A program made the position numbers and the translations under genes. From Acidobacteriaceae bacterium (GTDB lineage Bacteria > Acidobacteriota > Terriglobia > Terriglobales > Acidobacteriaceae): a stretch of DNA of 15,478 nt. The notes under the pieces were generated by a model. It worked only from the letters and a program-made list of their open reading frames with translations. It made no database searches and was not told where the DNA came from. The first letter of the stretch is position 1; each line of letters begins with the position of its first letter. The stretch covers positions 1-15,478 of the forward strand of contig JASHVU010000259.1 of the NCBI GenBank assembly GCA_030044455.1. Direction: 5' to 3'. Below are positions 7,223-12,003 of this stretch, in pieces.

Positions 7223-7558
7223 ATGTCGCGAGGGTTTCGTCGTTGGACGCAGGCCGAGAAGCAGGCGGCGGTGGCGCAGATGTCAGTGTGTGGCCATGGG
7301 AAAATAGCGGCCGAGCTGGGCATCTCCAAGCGTCTGTTGTACTACTGGCGCGCGCAGCAGGTGCGGCTGGAAAAGGCAGCCAAGGCGGAAGCCAGCCGGG
7401 AGCGGGCGCTTGAGCGGGAGAACCGGAAGCTGAAAGAGACGCTTGCAACCAAGGTTCTCGAAGTGGATTTCTTACAAGGTGTGTTGCGCAGAATCGAGGC
7501 TCGACGCCAGCCGACCAGCGGCTCCGGCGAGACTGCATCTACGAGCAGGTCCGAGTAA
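7223..7558 (+). CDS. IS3-family transposase OrfA (HTH DNA-binding protein)
   Basis: The 111-residue protein has an N-terminal helix-turn-helix of the IS3/IS911 OrfA type: RRWTQAEKQAAVAQM, then KIAAELGISKRLLYYWRAQQ (residues 6-45). A long charged coiled coil follows (about 50-92, with ALERENRKLKETLATKVLEVDFLQGVLRRIEA), the leucine-zipper part used for multimerisation. OrfA binds the terminal repeats and regulates transposition. The Shine-Dalgarno GGAGG lies 5 bases before the ATG. The stop overlaps the OrfB start in TAATG. OrfB is in the -1 frame relative to OrfA, but I see no A-rich slippery site of the usual IS3 kind near the junction. Confidence 0.9.
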   Translation: MSRGFRRWTQAEKQAAVAQMSVCGHGKIAAELGISKRLLYYWRAQQVRLEKAAKAEASRERALERENRKLKETLATKVLEVDFLQGVLRRIEARRQPTSGSGETASTSRSE

Positions 7559-8487
7559 TGCGGTCTGCAGCGCACCTCAGTATCGAGTCCATGTGCCGGC
7601 TGGGTCAGGTCAGCCGGGCCGGATTTTACCGTCACTGGCAGCAGCATGAGCCGCGCGCCGAGCAGACCGAGCTGCGTGCGCGGATGCATGAGATTGTGCT
7701 GGCCCATCGGCGCAACTACGGCTACCGGCGGGTGACGCGCGAGTTGCACAACCAGGGATGGGCGGTGAACCACAAGCGGGTGGCGCGGCTGATGGCCGAG
7801 GACAACCTGCTGTGTCTGCGCAAACGCCGCTTCGTGGCCACGACCGACTCCAGCCACGAACTGCGCGTGTATCTGAACCTTGCCGCGCGCATGCATCTGA
7901 CCGGGATCGATCAACTCTGGGTGGCCGATATCACCTACATCCGGCTGGCCGAGGAGTTCCTCTTCCTGGCCGTGGTGCTGGACGCCTTCAGCCGCCGCGC
8001 GCTGGGTTGGGCGCTGGATGAACGGCTGGATGCGGGACTTGCGATAGCCGCGTTGCGCCAGGCCATCGACCTGCGCCAGCCGGCGCCGGGCCTGGTCCAC
8101 CACTCCGACCGCGGCGTGCAATACGCCTCCCACGCCTACGTCGATCTGCTGCTCGAGCATGGCATCGAGCCCAGCATGAGCCGGATCGGCAACCCCTACG
8201 ACAACGCAAAATGCGAGAGCTTCCTCAAGACCTTCAAGCAGGAGGAGATCTACACCCGGCAGTATCGCGACCGCGCCGATCTGGAGGCCCACATCGGCCA
8301 GTTCATCGAACGCTATTACAATCGCAGACGCCTGCACTCGGCCCTCGGCTACCGCTCCCCGGAGCAGTTCGAGCAAAGACTGCTCAACCCACCGGCATCT
8401 GGGCCGGAACCAGGCGTGAGTTTTTTCAGGCATGAGGGAATCTATCGTCCCGATGTCGGCCAACAAGCCGGAGAGGAGCCGTCATGA
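7558..8487 (+). CDS. IS3-family transposase OrfB (DDE integrase catalytic subunit)
   Basis: The 309-residue protein begins with the HTH_21-like region (RRNYGYRRVTRELHNQGWAVNHKRVARLM, about residues 52-80). An rve retroviral-integrase core follows. The catalytic triad is visible: WVADITYI (first Asp), HHSDRGVQYAS (second Asp), and NPYDNAKCESFLKTFKQEEIY (Glu of CES). The conserved YYNRRRLHSALGYRSPEQFE lies after it. It cuts and joins the element ends. No frameshift or stop interrupts the frame, so the enzyme looks intact. The C-terminal tail after EQFEQRLL (about 35 residues) is not conserved family sequence. Translation is probably coupled to OrfA through the TAATG overlap. Confidence 0.93.
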   Translation: MRSAAHLSIESMCRLGQVSRAGFYRHWQQHEPRAEQTELRARMHEIVLAHRRNYGYRRVTRELHNQGWAVNHKRVARLMAEDNLLCLRKRRFVATTDSSHELRVYLNLAARMHLTGIDQLWVADITYIRLAEEFLFLAVVLDAFSRRALGWALDERLDAGLAIAALRQAIDLRQPAPGLVHHSDRGVQYASHAYVDLLLEHGIEPSMSRIGNPYDNAKCESFLKTFKQEEIYTRQYRDRADLEAHIGQFIERYYNRRRLHSALGYRSPEQFEQRLLNPPASGPEPGVSFFRHEGIYRPDVGQQAGEEPS

Positions 8488-9317: not shown

Positions 9318-10238
9318 TCAGTTCGGCATCTTGCTGAACAGGCTGTTCGAAGTCGACTCCAGCTGCGCAATCACATCTTCCAGCGCCGTCTGCTGCGTCT
9401 CGTCGAGCGAAAGCTGGGTTGACACGGTCGGAATATCGGCCTGCATCAGGTCAGTTTGCGCGGTCGTAAGCTGGGTCTGGGAATTGGTGGTTGCGGTCGA
9501 AGCGGCCGTGAGTTGCGTAACGGAGTTATCAATCGTCACTCGCTGTTGCGACACGTAGTTAAGCGCCGAACTCAGCGCCTCGGTGTCGTCGACCGCCTGG
9601 CCGGTGTTCACCGTACCCGATGAGTAATCGGCCACCAGCGCATTCAACGCGCCAAACACGCTCAAGCCCGAGTTGCCGCTGCCCAGAAAAATCTGATCCC
9701 CCGGCACATTCAGCTGAATCTTTTGCCCATTGGGCAGCTCAAGGTAATTGATGTCGTCATCGCCGTCGTAGCTGGTCACAGCGGGCGAAGTTGCTGCCGA
9801 AGTGGAAAACGGCGCCGACCCCGTCTGACCCCCGGCAAAGATGTACTGCCCCTGGTAACTCGTGTTGGCGAGCGATTGCACCTCGCCCAGGATACCCGAG
9901 ATCTGACTCCCGATTGACTGCACATCGCTCGCGCTCATGGTGCCGTTGTTGGCGCTGGTGGCCAGCGAAACCGCCTGCGTCAGCTCGCTCACCACGCTGC
10001 CCAACGCTGAATCCGCCACTTGAAGCTGGCCGGTCACCAGGTTCGAACTCTGCGTAAAGGAATCGTCCTGCTGAATCTGATTCAGCAGCAGCACATTCTC
10101 GCCCGCGCCAACGGGATTCTGGCTCAACGATGTGATGCTCACCCCACTCGAAAGCTCTGAGCTCAACTGTTGCTCGTTGGCCTGGGTCTGATCGAGCGAG
10201 CTCACCAGGTTCGTAATGTAAGTCGGATCAACCCGCAT
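9318..10238 (-). CDS. flgL: Flagellar hook-associated protein 3, FlgL (hook-filament junction)
   Basis: The 306-residue protein has the flagellin-type N-terminal helix pair: residues 1-140 from MRVDPTYITNLVSSLDQTQANEQQLSSEL, with the conserved SQNPVGAGENVLLLNQI and LANTSYQGQYIFAGG. A central variable domain is rich in G, D and S. The C-terminal helix (about 235-306) carries LSLDETQQTALEDVIAQL. YIFAGG is typical of FlgL and absent from most flagellins, which decides the call. It is exported by the flagellar type III system and joins FlgK to the filament. The Shine-Dalgarno CAGGAG is 7 bases before the ATG and is made by the last unit of a heptamer repeat. It is the last gene of the cluster, separated from flgK by 313 bp of repeats where other junctions are short. 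Confidence 0.92.
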   Translation of the reverse strand: MRVDPTYITNLVSSLDQTQANEQQLSSELSSGVSITSLSQNPVGAGENVLLLNQIQQDDSFTQSSNLVTGQLQVADSALGSVVSELTQAVSLATSANNGTMSASDVQSIGSQISGILGEVQSLANTSYQGQYIFAGGQTGSAPFSTSAATSPAVTSYDGDDDINYLELPNGQKIQLNVPGDQIFLGSGNSGLSVFGALNALVADYSSGTVNTGQAVDDTEALSSALNYVSQQRVTIDNSVTQLTAASTATTNSQTQLTTAQTDLMQADIPTVSTQLSLDETQQTALEDVIAQLESTSNSLFSKMPN

Positions 10239-10244
10239 AAAACA

Positions 10245-10265
10245 GCTCCTGGCCTCCAGCCTCTA
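10245..10265 (+). repeat. Heptamer tract, left half (three units), interrupted by the MITE-like element
   Basis: GCTCCTG, GCCTCCA and GCCTCTA follow in phase (10245-10251, 10252-10258, 10259-10265). The next unit in phase, GCTCCTG, continues at 10409 after the inserted element, whose flanking TA is shared with the last unit. On the minus strand the first unit supplies the AGGAG ribosome site of flgL. Confidence 0.65.
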
Positions 10266-10406
10266 GGGAACCTCTGATCAAGTACGGAAAGTCCGATCCA
10301 GTTGCCGTTTTGAAAGGGCACGGCTTCAGCCGTGCCGAAAAGGCAGGCAAAATGAATGGGACTTTAGCCCCCGAAGACAGGTCCCGCGACTTAATCAGTG
10401 CTTCCC
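10266..10406. mobile_element. MITE-like element, about 141 bp, with TA on both sides (copy 2 of the double-hairpin family)
   Basis: The terminal inverted repeats GGGAACCTCTGATCAAGT (10266-10283) and the reverse complement of 10389-10406 match at 15 of 18 positions. The element is flanked by TA at 10264-10265 and 10407-10408, the duplication expected of Tc1/mariner or IS630-type insertion. Inside are a 9-bp stem (GGCACGGCT-TC-AGCCGTGCC, 10317-10336) and a decayed GGG-ACTTTAG-CCC hairpin (10358-10370). These are spaced like those of copy 1 at about 2944-3002. There is no coding capacity, so any movement would need a transposase in trans. Excising it with one TA restores a continuous heptamer tract. 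Confidence 0.7.
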
Positions 10407-10429
10407 TAGCTCCTGCCTCCTGGCTCTCT
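10407..10429 (+). repeat. Heptamer tract, right half
   Basis: After the duplicated TA, the units GCTCCTG (10409-10415), CCTCCTG (10416-10422) and GCTCTCT (10423-10429) continue in the same phase and orientation as 10245-10265. Together the two halves make six units. Confidence 0.6.
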
Positions 10430-10493
10430 GATAGGTGGCACCTGCGCCCGCCCCCAAGGTCCGTCGTTCCTACCCTTGTCACCAATGACGCTC

Positions 10494-10520
10494 CTATCGA
10501 CATTAATTGGCTCGAAACTA
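10494..10520 (-). promoter_or_regulatory. Weak sigma-28-like promoter candidate upstream of flgL
   Basis: On the minus strand, GTCGATAG (10494-10501) matches six of eight positions of the sigma-28 -10 GCCGATAA. The -35 at N15 is only TAGT (10517-10520). It lies about 255 bases before flgL. The match is poor and overlaps a repeat tract, so chance is a fair explanation. It is listed because flgL is isolated from flgK and the flgM promoter has a similar -10. Confidence 0.2.
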
Positions 10521-10545
10521 GGAGCTAGAAGCTAGCGGCTAGTAG
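10518..10545 (-). repeat. Heptamer tract, four units in the opposite orientation
   Basis: On the plus strand it reads CTAGGAG, CTAGAAG, CTAGCGG, CTAGTAG in perfect seven-base phase. On the minus strand this is the same GCNNCTA family as the other tracts. It ends six bases before the flgK stop codon, so the tract lies directly in the 3' end of the flgK transcript. Confidence 0.65.
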
Positions 10546-10551
10546 CTGCCT

Positions 10552-12003
10552 TTACGACACCGCCGTCTCCACGCCCAGGTTCAGCGCCGAGGTGATAATC
10601 GTGTTCAGCATGGTAAATACCTGCGAAGCCGCCTGGTAGCTGGTCTCAAGGGTCGACATAGCCGCCGCTTCGTCATTCAGGTTCACGCTGGAAAGCGCGT
10701 TGTTCTGCGTCTGGAGCTGCGTCACCGATGCACCCTGCGCCGTGTTCTCCGTTTGAACCTCTGAAACCGTCGAGCCGAGCGTAGTCACAAGGTTCGAGTA
10801 GTAGTCGATCGGTGTCTGACCATTCACAATCTGCCCGCCAGCCAGATTCGCCATCGTAATCGCATTCGAGTCGTCACCCGTTCCGTCACCGAATCCCGCC
10901 GCTGCAATCTGGTTGGGATCGGTCATCGTCACCGTCATCGCAGCCGCACTGCCCGCCGCCTGCGCAGGCTCGTTGAAGATATAGAGTGGCGTCACTCCGT
11001 TGCCGACCACTCCTGACGAATTGGTCCCGGTGCCTTCGACACCGTCCAAATCGGTTCCCGAATTATTCGCCGCATTCACGCTCGTTGAGATGTTGTATGC
11101 AAGCTGATCGAGCGAGCTCAGCACATTGGGAATGTCCTGATCGCGCGCAGTGAGGTATCCCCCCAACTGCCCTCCGCCCGTCATGAGTCCCGAAGTAATG
11201 TCGTTGCCGCCCAGAAAGAAGTCCGTAACACCATCCGCCGTCCCGGTGGTGAGCTGATAGCTCTGACTGCCTGAGACCAGCAACTGCCCAGAGGTGGTGG
11301 TGATCTCAAGGCCATTGTTTTCGGTAGTCACCCGGTTGATCCCAATCAGTTGCGACAACTGGCTCAGGTCCTGCTGCCGCTGGTCTTCAAGGGTGCCGGC
11401 GTCGGCGTCAGGCGATGTGGACTCAATCTGCTGGTTCACCTGGGCCAACGCGCTGGTCAGCGAATTCACCTGACCGGCAATCCCCGCCGCCTCCTGGTCG
11501 ATCGCCGTACGCTGCGAATTCAGACTCGCCGCAGTGCCTGATATGTCGCCGGCGAGCGTCGATGCGGCCGAGAGTACGCTCTCGCGCAGTGAATTGTCGC
11601 TTGGGTCGCTTTCAAGCGATGAGAATGAATTGAAGAAACTGGTGACGTCGCTACCGATATCACCCGCAGTCGAGCTGGTGGAACCGGAATCCGGCGTGAA
11701 CAGCGCCTGCATCTGATTGAGTGCCGAAAGCCGCGTGCTCGACGCCGATGCGAGCTGCTGCTGCTGGTCCAACCGCTCGTTCAACACGAGGTCTCGTTGC
11801 GAGGTTGCGCCGGTTTCGGTCACTCCCTGGCCAATCGTGATCCCATTCACCGTGATCGGTGCGTTCTCCTGCCAATCAGGAGTCTCTTCTGTGTATCCGG
11901 TGGTGTTGGCGTTGGCTACATTGTTGGCCACCACATTCAGCGCCGACTGGTCGGCATCGAGTGCGCCCGAGATCAGTCCGAAGGCGGAGTTAATTGTCCC
12001 CAT
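10552..12003 (-). CDS. flgK: Flagellar hook-associated protein 1, FlgK (hook-filament junction)
   Basis: The 483-residue protein opens with the rod/hook family helix FGLISGALDADQSALNVVANNVANANTTGYTEE (about residues 8-40). It closes with the matching C-terminal motif VNLNDEAAAMSTLETSYQAASQVFTMLNTI (about 440-470). These helices pack together in the axial structure. The FlgK-specific region between is coiled-coil rich (about 75-220), including GTLEDQRQQDLSQLSQLIG, followed by beta-rich sequence. The protein is exported through the flagellar type III apparatus and forms the first junction ring above the hook. The Shine-Dalgarno GGAGG lies 7 bases before the ATG. The gene overlaps the flgN-like gene by 14 bases, which supports translational coupling of chaperone and client. 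Confidence 0.95.
   Translation of the reverse strand: MGTINSAFGLISGALDADQSALNVVANNVANANTTGYTEETPDWQENAPITVNGITIGQGVTETGATSQRDLVLNERLDQQQQLASASSTRLSALNQMQALFTPDSGSTSSTAGDIGSDVTSFFNSFSSLESDPSDNSLRESVLSAASTLAGDISGTAASLNSQRTAIDQEAAGIAGQVNSLTSALAQVNQQIESTSPDADAGTLEDQRQQDLSQLSQLIGINRVTTENNGLEITTTSGQLLVSGSQSYQLTTGTADGVTDFFLGGNDITSGLMTGGGQLGGYLTARDQDIPNVLSSLDQLAYNISTSVNAANNSGTDLDGVEGTGTNSSGVVGNGVTPLYIFNEPAQAAGSAAAMTVTMTDPNQIAAAGFGDGTGDDSNAITMANLAGGQIVNGQTPIDYYSNLVTTLGSTVSEVQTENTAQGASVTQLQTQNNALSSVNLNDEAAAMSTLETSYQAASQVFTMLNTIITSALNLGVETAVS

Follow-up and report, generated by a model that had tools for sequence, protein, structure and literature searches.

The 15,478 nucleotide stretch of Acidobacteriaceae DNA analyzed here (the window) carries between flgK and flgL a 139 bp element (10267-10405) that is very probably a non-autonomous mini-element, one that has IS5-family ends and whose body is a complete RAYT/TIRYT-type REP unit. 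A broader reading, possible and put forward tentatively, is that two independent sets of mobility signals, the outer being the IS5 (DDE) ends and the inner a REP unit of the RAYT/TIRYT (HUH tyrosine) type, were combined here in a chimera that formed once, that the REP unit has become a near-obligate body of the element across the genus, and that a REP family has by this means gained a second, RAYT-independent route of spread. The parts of the element in the window are as follows.

10267-10405, + strand (the orientation of the internal REP unit): IS5-type MITE of 139 bp, type A layout, supported by multiple copies, paired ends, YTAR duplications and empty orthologous gaps
10263-10266, no strand: target-site duplication CTAG, copy 1, read directly, with the 4 bp register taken from element statistics
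10406-10409, no strand: target-site duplication CTAG, copy 2, on the same basis
10267-10283, + strand: left terminal inverted repeat GGAACCTCTGATCAAGT; the full IS5 element L312/L287 has the same sequence at one of its ends
10389-10405, - strand: right terminal inverted repeat, GGAAGCACTGATTAAGT when read inwards, from the sequence reading
10286-10302, + strand: second, decayed copy of the left inverted repeat with 4 mismatches, supported by the nested entries L001, L002 and L003 and by spacer counts
10307-10381, + strand: two-hairpin REP unit of 75 bp that stands alone at many other places, supported by its match to model R1, by the lone units and by its flanking of a REP-associated transposase gene in L311
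10317-10336, + strand: first hairpin of the REP unit, GGCACGGC-TTCA-GCCGTGCC
10358-10372, + strand: second hairpin of the REP unit, GGGACTTTAGCCCCC, with a single G to A change relative to GGGGCTTTAGCCCC of most other copies shown

Compared directly, the 18 bp ends GGGAACCTCTGATCAAGT and GGGAAGCACTGATTAAGT agree at 15 of 18 positions and have TA on both sides, as an earlier note on this DNA had described, and a TA-flanked pair of this quality at 60-300 bp spacing is present once in the window and not at all in 30 mononucleotide shuffles taken together. The same note had placed the bounds at 10266-10406 with a TA target duplication, a placement that is overturned by the flanks of related elements. 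These were collected at loci fetched by several routes, requiring both ends with no more than 4 mismatches each (6 in total) and less than 400 bp, and the 62 raw paired-end readings reduce to 58 distinct elements when 4 nested readings are dropped. All four flanking bases agree between the two sides in 29 of the 58 elements (on average 9.3 and at most 20 in 10,000 shuffles), the other 29 not keeping all four duplicated bases, and YTAR, the IS5 target type, stands on both sides of 35. Among these 35 the outer Y agrees in 31 (19.2 in shuffles) and the outer R in 32 (17.5 in shuffles), neither of which is reached in 10,000 shuffles. Across the 62 raw readings the two sides are identical 46, 54, 51 and 48 times at the four positions in turn, as against 7-32 times at neighboring positions. 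The duplications seen are CTAG, CTAA, TTAA or TTAG on both sides. The agreement thus extends to the bases beyond TA, the target duplication is 4 bp and of the YTAR type, and the element proper therefore spans 10267-10405 between two copies of CTAG, with terminal inverted repeats of 17 bp each. The phase of the surrounding heptamers had been offered as support for the exact bounds and for the TA duplication; it fails as such, because removal of 139 + 4 bp and of 141 + 2 bp leaves the same joined sequence and the phase is therefore unable to separate the two readings. A flanking TA alone does not prove a mariner-type origin, and here the family call was altered by looking one base further on either side.

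The MITE-like nature that had been proposed for the element is borne out. It is short, contains no transposase gene and no listed ORF of at least 80 aa wholly inside it, carries inverted ends and a target-site duplication, occurs in 15 complete copies in its own genome, and has an autonomous partner with the same ends in the congener G085. No Rfam family matches the window at gathering scores.

This partner (L312/L287), reached by following contig breaks in G101 to G085, is a full element of 1,184 bp with TTAG on both sides, whose left end matches the window left end at 17 of 17 positions and whose right end is two mismatches from the pattern. Its 320-aa transposase belongs to the IS5 family (NCBIfam NF033581, E 6.8e-101, 337 bits with a cut-off of 140) and contains DDE_Tnp_1 and DUF772 in Pfam. 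The contigs of G101 repeatedly end about 140 bp into a repeat that opens with these ends and then codes for either the first or the last part of a transposase. YTAR is given as the duplication of IS5 in the accessible text of PMC10359306. When 30 transposase loci were all scanned by ends alone (no more than 3 mismatches), eight had both ends, and 15 of the 16 sides of these full elements are YTAR. The flanking tetramers agree in four of the eight (L312; L316, CTAG; L321, TTAG; and L324, CTAA, which measures 993 bp with a masked run) and disagree in the other four (L314, TTAG/CTAA; L318, CTTG/CTAA; L319, TTAA/CTAG; L326, TTAA/CTAG), for which recombination between copies, assembly joins or decay are possible causes. 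The duplication is not established by the autonomous copies on their own; the claim rests on the 58 mini-elements.

IS5 protein matches, whole or partial, were found in 38 of 79 genus genomes searched. The window's own assembly, at 76.5% completeness, gave no IS5 transposase relative by PF05598 or by protein search, and the protein search was likewise empty in G066, the genome richest in ends (57; assembly 78% complete), where three DUF772 loci are present without such ends. These absences, in two incomplete assemblies, weigh against the reading we favor, under which an IS5-family transposase acting in trans would move the window's copies. Among other DUF772 loci, L247 and L251 are IS5 elements with ends related but not identical to those of the window. 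A 1.5 kb end-to-end span on contig C282 of G066 was considered as an autonomous copy and rejected, as it consists of two separate mini-elements around a gene, and in a 2.8 kb stretch of G011 no ORF in the ORF list was recognized as a transposase.

The own assembly (4.72 Mb in 813 contigs) contains at least 44 matches to a 141-base query, some of them interior-only, with 40 of 89 first-look candidates scored. The genome search that the earlier note had proposed thus finds a multi-copy element, present with both ends at 15 places. These complete copies fall into type A (139 bp, the class of the window; n=8), type B (120 bp; n=4) and type C (283-287 bp; n=3), where type A corresponds to the 120 bp type B plus 19 bp at the left end. 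Across all 139 bp, ends included, the type A copies share 95-100% identity (mean 98%, n=8). Two copies (L007/L008) lie in tandem with a single YTAR between them. The type C copies (L016, L017, L018) contain about 160 bp of extra interior, which has palindromes of its own and may be a further nested element. Across the genus, the end pattern at no more than 2 mismatches is present in 29 of 80 genomes, with a reversed control pattern found in 0 of 80.

The interior of the element is a repeat in its own right. Residues 10307-10381 match a 75 bp two-hairpin unit that runs from GTTTTGAAAGGGCACG to CCCCTGAGGGA and has sharp edges in copies that lack IS5 ends; an IS5-type end is absent within 70 bp of 34 of the 41 units examined. 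A model of the unit (R1), built from 29 aligned units, has at least 102 matches in the own genome (E<=0.001; 150 of 2433 candidates scored), 10 to 150 matches in nine other genus genomes and 0, 3, 86 and 148 in four genomes outside the genus, the high values in both sets being lower bounds with 150 candidates scored per genome. The unit is thus high-copy, palindromic and present outside other elements, as expected of a REP. The earlier note had rightly taken the whole for an inserted MITE and had missed that its interior is a separate and far more numerous REP unit.

The unit is also linked to a transposase gene of another kind. At three of 13 Y1-type transposase loci (L311, L309 and L302) it lies inverted on both sides of the gene, the L311 flanking units being 85% identical over query positions 1-72 and 77% over 3-72, and the L311 protein is a REP-associated tyrosine transposase (NCBIfam NF047646, 100.8 bits with a cut-off of 80). 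No inverted unit pair was found at the other ten Y1-type loci, which include both of those in the own genome. The edges of the unit (GTTTTGAAAGG and CCCCTGAGGGA) are without a GTAG tag, and by its sequence the body is therefore TIRYT-like and not a GTAG REP proper. In L311 (1284-1354) and L309 (1370-1447) the edge of a REP unit (GAGGGATG, GAGGGAATGTATG) abuts or overlaps the transposase start codon, as if the REP unit supplied the ribosome site of the gene.

How the IS5 ends and the REP unit came together can be judged from elements that were found independently of the interior. The 15 own-genome copies and L060 were fetched by whole-element similarity, so that their REP units are no independent count; the other 42 of the 58 elements were fetched by ends (including stretches picked from end pairs) or by unrelated queries, and 41 of these 42 carry the REP unit. 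The exception is a mini-element of G077 (L106/L187) with matching ends and no REP unit, showing that such ends can hold other DNA. Of the 56 elements (out of 58) with a clear unit, 39 have a spacer of 4 bp from end to unit, 5 one of 3 bp, 9 one of 4 + 19 bp and 3 some other spacer, the shared spacing recurring in several species. Eight of the 23 bp (4 + 19) cases are type A copies, where the fresh end is followed inwards by a decayed second end; the ninth is L179 of G094, in which a similar end duplication is seen by eye. On the right side the spacers form two main classes, of about 10 and of 19-20 bp.

From these sequence comparisons the simplest reading is that ends and unit were joined once and then spread, and it is likely that one old chimera spread through the genus. 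IS5 ends would have come to enclose a REP unit on one occasion, ahead of the diversification of the genus, the chimera would then have spread as one element, and an IS5-family (DDE) transposase in trans would have inserted it between flgK and flgL, at a CTAG within the heptamer tract. Repeated and independent joining, in which REP units would have entered IS5 mini-elements at a favored position, would account for the mini-element of G077 with matching ends and no REP unit, for the two main classes of right-side spacer and for the nesting of REP-type units in one another (L169, L173, L174 and L190, by eye). We nevertheless consider this alternative unlikely, as the left junction is 4 or 3 bp in 44 of 56 elements, and in 9 more when the 19 bp end duplication is counted, and as the two right-side classes, about 9 bp apart, otherwise share their layout.

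In those four loci the nested REP-type units sit in the hairpin loop of other REP units; some have a different inverted end at their borders (..GGCTGCGGAAAAA..TTTTTCCGCAGCC..), which may mark yet another family of mini-elements. In the flgK-flgL gaps of L131 and L145 a second REP class lies within the first: each gap contains a lone REP unit (R1) with its first hairpin broken by a GGTAGG-tagged palindrome.

Present mobility could be driven by an IS5-family or by a RAYT-type enzyme. If the copies were now moved as REP units by a RAYT-type transposase, the IS5 ends would be a passive relic; REP units do outnumber IS5-ended copies in the own genome (at least 102 versus 15 complete), and RAYT-type genes are present. 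However, the copies begin and end at the IS5 ends, with YTAR duplications, and not at the unit edges, and the near identity of the type A copies (95-100%, n=8) runs through the full 139 bp including the ends, so that movement by a RAYT-type enzyme is very improbable and movement through the IS5 ends remains the reading we favor.

Relative to IS5 insertion sequences, the element has one end identical to that of a full IS5 element of a congener encoding an NF033581 transposase and shares the YTAR duplication (PMC10359306, in its accessible text), but it is 139 bp long, has no transposase gene and, by eye, no recognizable IS5 body beyond the ends. In size, short inverted ends and an IS5 partner it resembles the IS5-derived MITEs of Archaea (140-252 bp, in M. 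burtonii, M. barkeri and M. acetivorans; PMC3852290), which differ in their archaeal hosts and for which the accessible text of that source does not mention a REP body. The body, inverted around a REP-associated tyrosine transposase in L311, recalls TIRtrons/TIRYT and REPtrons/RAYT (accessible parts of PMC3733652 and PMC6006769), the TIRtron/TIRYT arrangement having been described for Acidobacteria, where one of the TIRYT genes has a repeated TIR family (PMC3733652, same part), whereas the window unit lies between ends that belong to an unrelated DDE element and has no GTAG edge tag. REPINs, described in the available portion of PMC3116915 as two inverted REPs thought to use RAYT in trans, are likewise miniature repeats; the window unit instead consists of two different hairpins with IS5 ends outside. 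The idea of one repeat class spreading inside the transposon of another class has a counterpart in the SINE V-domain carried in the MER6 DNA transposon (PMC6887750, as far as its accessible text goes), there with an animal retroposon and a eukaryotic DNA transposon. By sequence the window element accordingly classes as a MITE with IS5-type ends, and not as an IS630/mariner element, with a TIRYT-like body. In the open-licence literature surveyed, to the extent of its accessible text, we found no prior description of an IS5-ended MITE with a REP body. REP sequences are common bacterial repeats whose dispersal is still called poorly understood (PMC8266576, accessible text); here one REP family also travels within IS5-type ends with clear 4 bp target duplications, and such boundary-defined REP insertions give a handle on whether two unrelated transposition systems share a substrate.

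The insertion lies directly 5' of flgL and widens the flgK-flgL gap from 170 to 313 bp, confirming what had been noted of its position. The features of the site are as follows.

10552-12003, - strand: flgK, directly supported by Pfam FlgK_D1
9318-10238, - strand: flgL, with Pfam Flagellin_N, which supports a flagellin-type protein
10245-10262, no strand: flgL-side heptamer tract, part between insertion and flgL, holding the likely flgL ribosome site CCAGGAGC
10410-10429, no strand: flgL-side heptamer tract, part beyond the insertion
10516-10551, no strand: flgK-side heptamer tract, which is inverted relative to the tract hit by the insertion and forms its partner arm

The tract of six heptamers proposed earlier stands as to its period and its reconstructible empty site, with 22 of 35 positions of the joined tract matching at offset 7 (reached in 4 of 20,000 shuffles); its heptamers are degenerate and not identical. 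Empty sites had been sought in orthologous flgK-flgL gaps and are found. Of 51 orthologous loci fetched, 43 gaps were measured (7 not tried, 1 without flgK), and none of the 43 contains the end pair. Ten of these were aligned with and without the element and all ten score better without it; dropping 143 bases always saves gap cost, and the real evidence is therefore the base-by-base match at the junction in L164 (flgL 85% identical) and L123 (84%), both of which retain both heptamer arms, a read-through junction and the target TA with no insert. The L164 empty site reads GCTAGCGGCTGGAAACCAGGAGC and the joined window GCTAGAGGCTGGAGGCCAGGAGC. The nearest named relatives by flgL are Acidobacteriaceae metagenome genomes, some labelled Terracidiphilus. 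In another genome (L150, 2797-2926) a 130 bp element of the same family, flanked by TTAG/TTAG and carrying the REP unit, lies just after flgL and is a separate insertion in the same gene neighborhood.

The heptamer tracts of the window (10239-10262 and 10410-10432 versus 10516-10551) are inverted to each other and bound the flgK-flgL gap. Inverted heptamer tracts are also present in L164, L123, L133 and L128; the repeats are AGCTAGA-like, save in L128 and L165, where they are GGGAACA-like. Heptamer repeats have been reported for Xanthomonas and Nostoc (PMC4692102, in its accessible portion).

In the predicted message the inverted heptamer tracts pair and place the likely flgL ribosome site in a stem, on top of which the element would form a self-contained hairpin. 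The predicted fold energy is -136.6 kcal/mol with the element versus -76.9 kcal/mol without it, and the predicted pairing of the ribosome site is 0.70 in both cases, so that a regulatory role is not favored and the effect on flgL is probably small. An element kept for regulating flgL, as a terminator, through message processing or by masking of the ribosome site, would fit its position directly upstream of the likely ribosome site, its folding as DNA (better than 200 shuffles, z -3.1) and the strong folding of the gap as RNA (z -4.0), but with the site pairing unchanged and the element in none of the 43 measured orthologous gaps we regard this as very unlikely.

Mobilization by an IS630/Tc1-mariner-type transposase, which the earlier note had proposed from the TA target, can be dismissed with near certainty: TA adjoins both ends of the window element and of most copies shown, and DDE_3 (IS630) transposases occur in all seven genomes searched (28 loci), but the bases outside TA agree as well, which a TA duplication does not predict, no IS630-like element with the same ends surrounds a transposase at these loci, and the full element bearing the ends is IS5. 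Scanned at no more than 6 mismatches in 20, 24 of the 28 DDE_3 loci are without such an end, some of the loci being cut by contig ends. Two of the others, L218 and L225, have one 6-mismatch end match each, L236 has a REP-carrying mini-element (MITE) beside the match and not around the transposase, and L237 has a single good end that runs into a REP unit, marking a REP-carrying copy. Elsewhere in the window, 7223-8487 contains a transposase ORF pair, with HTH_Tnp_1 followed by rve/HTH_21 in Pfam, which we take to be IS3-like.
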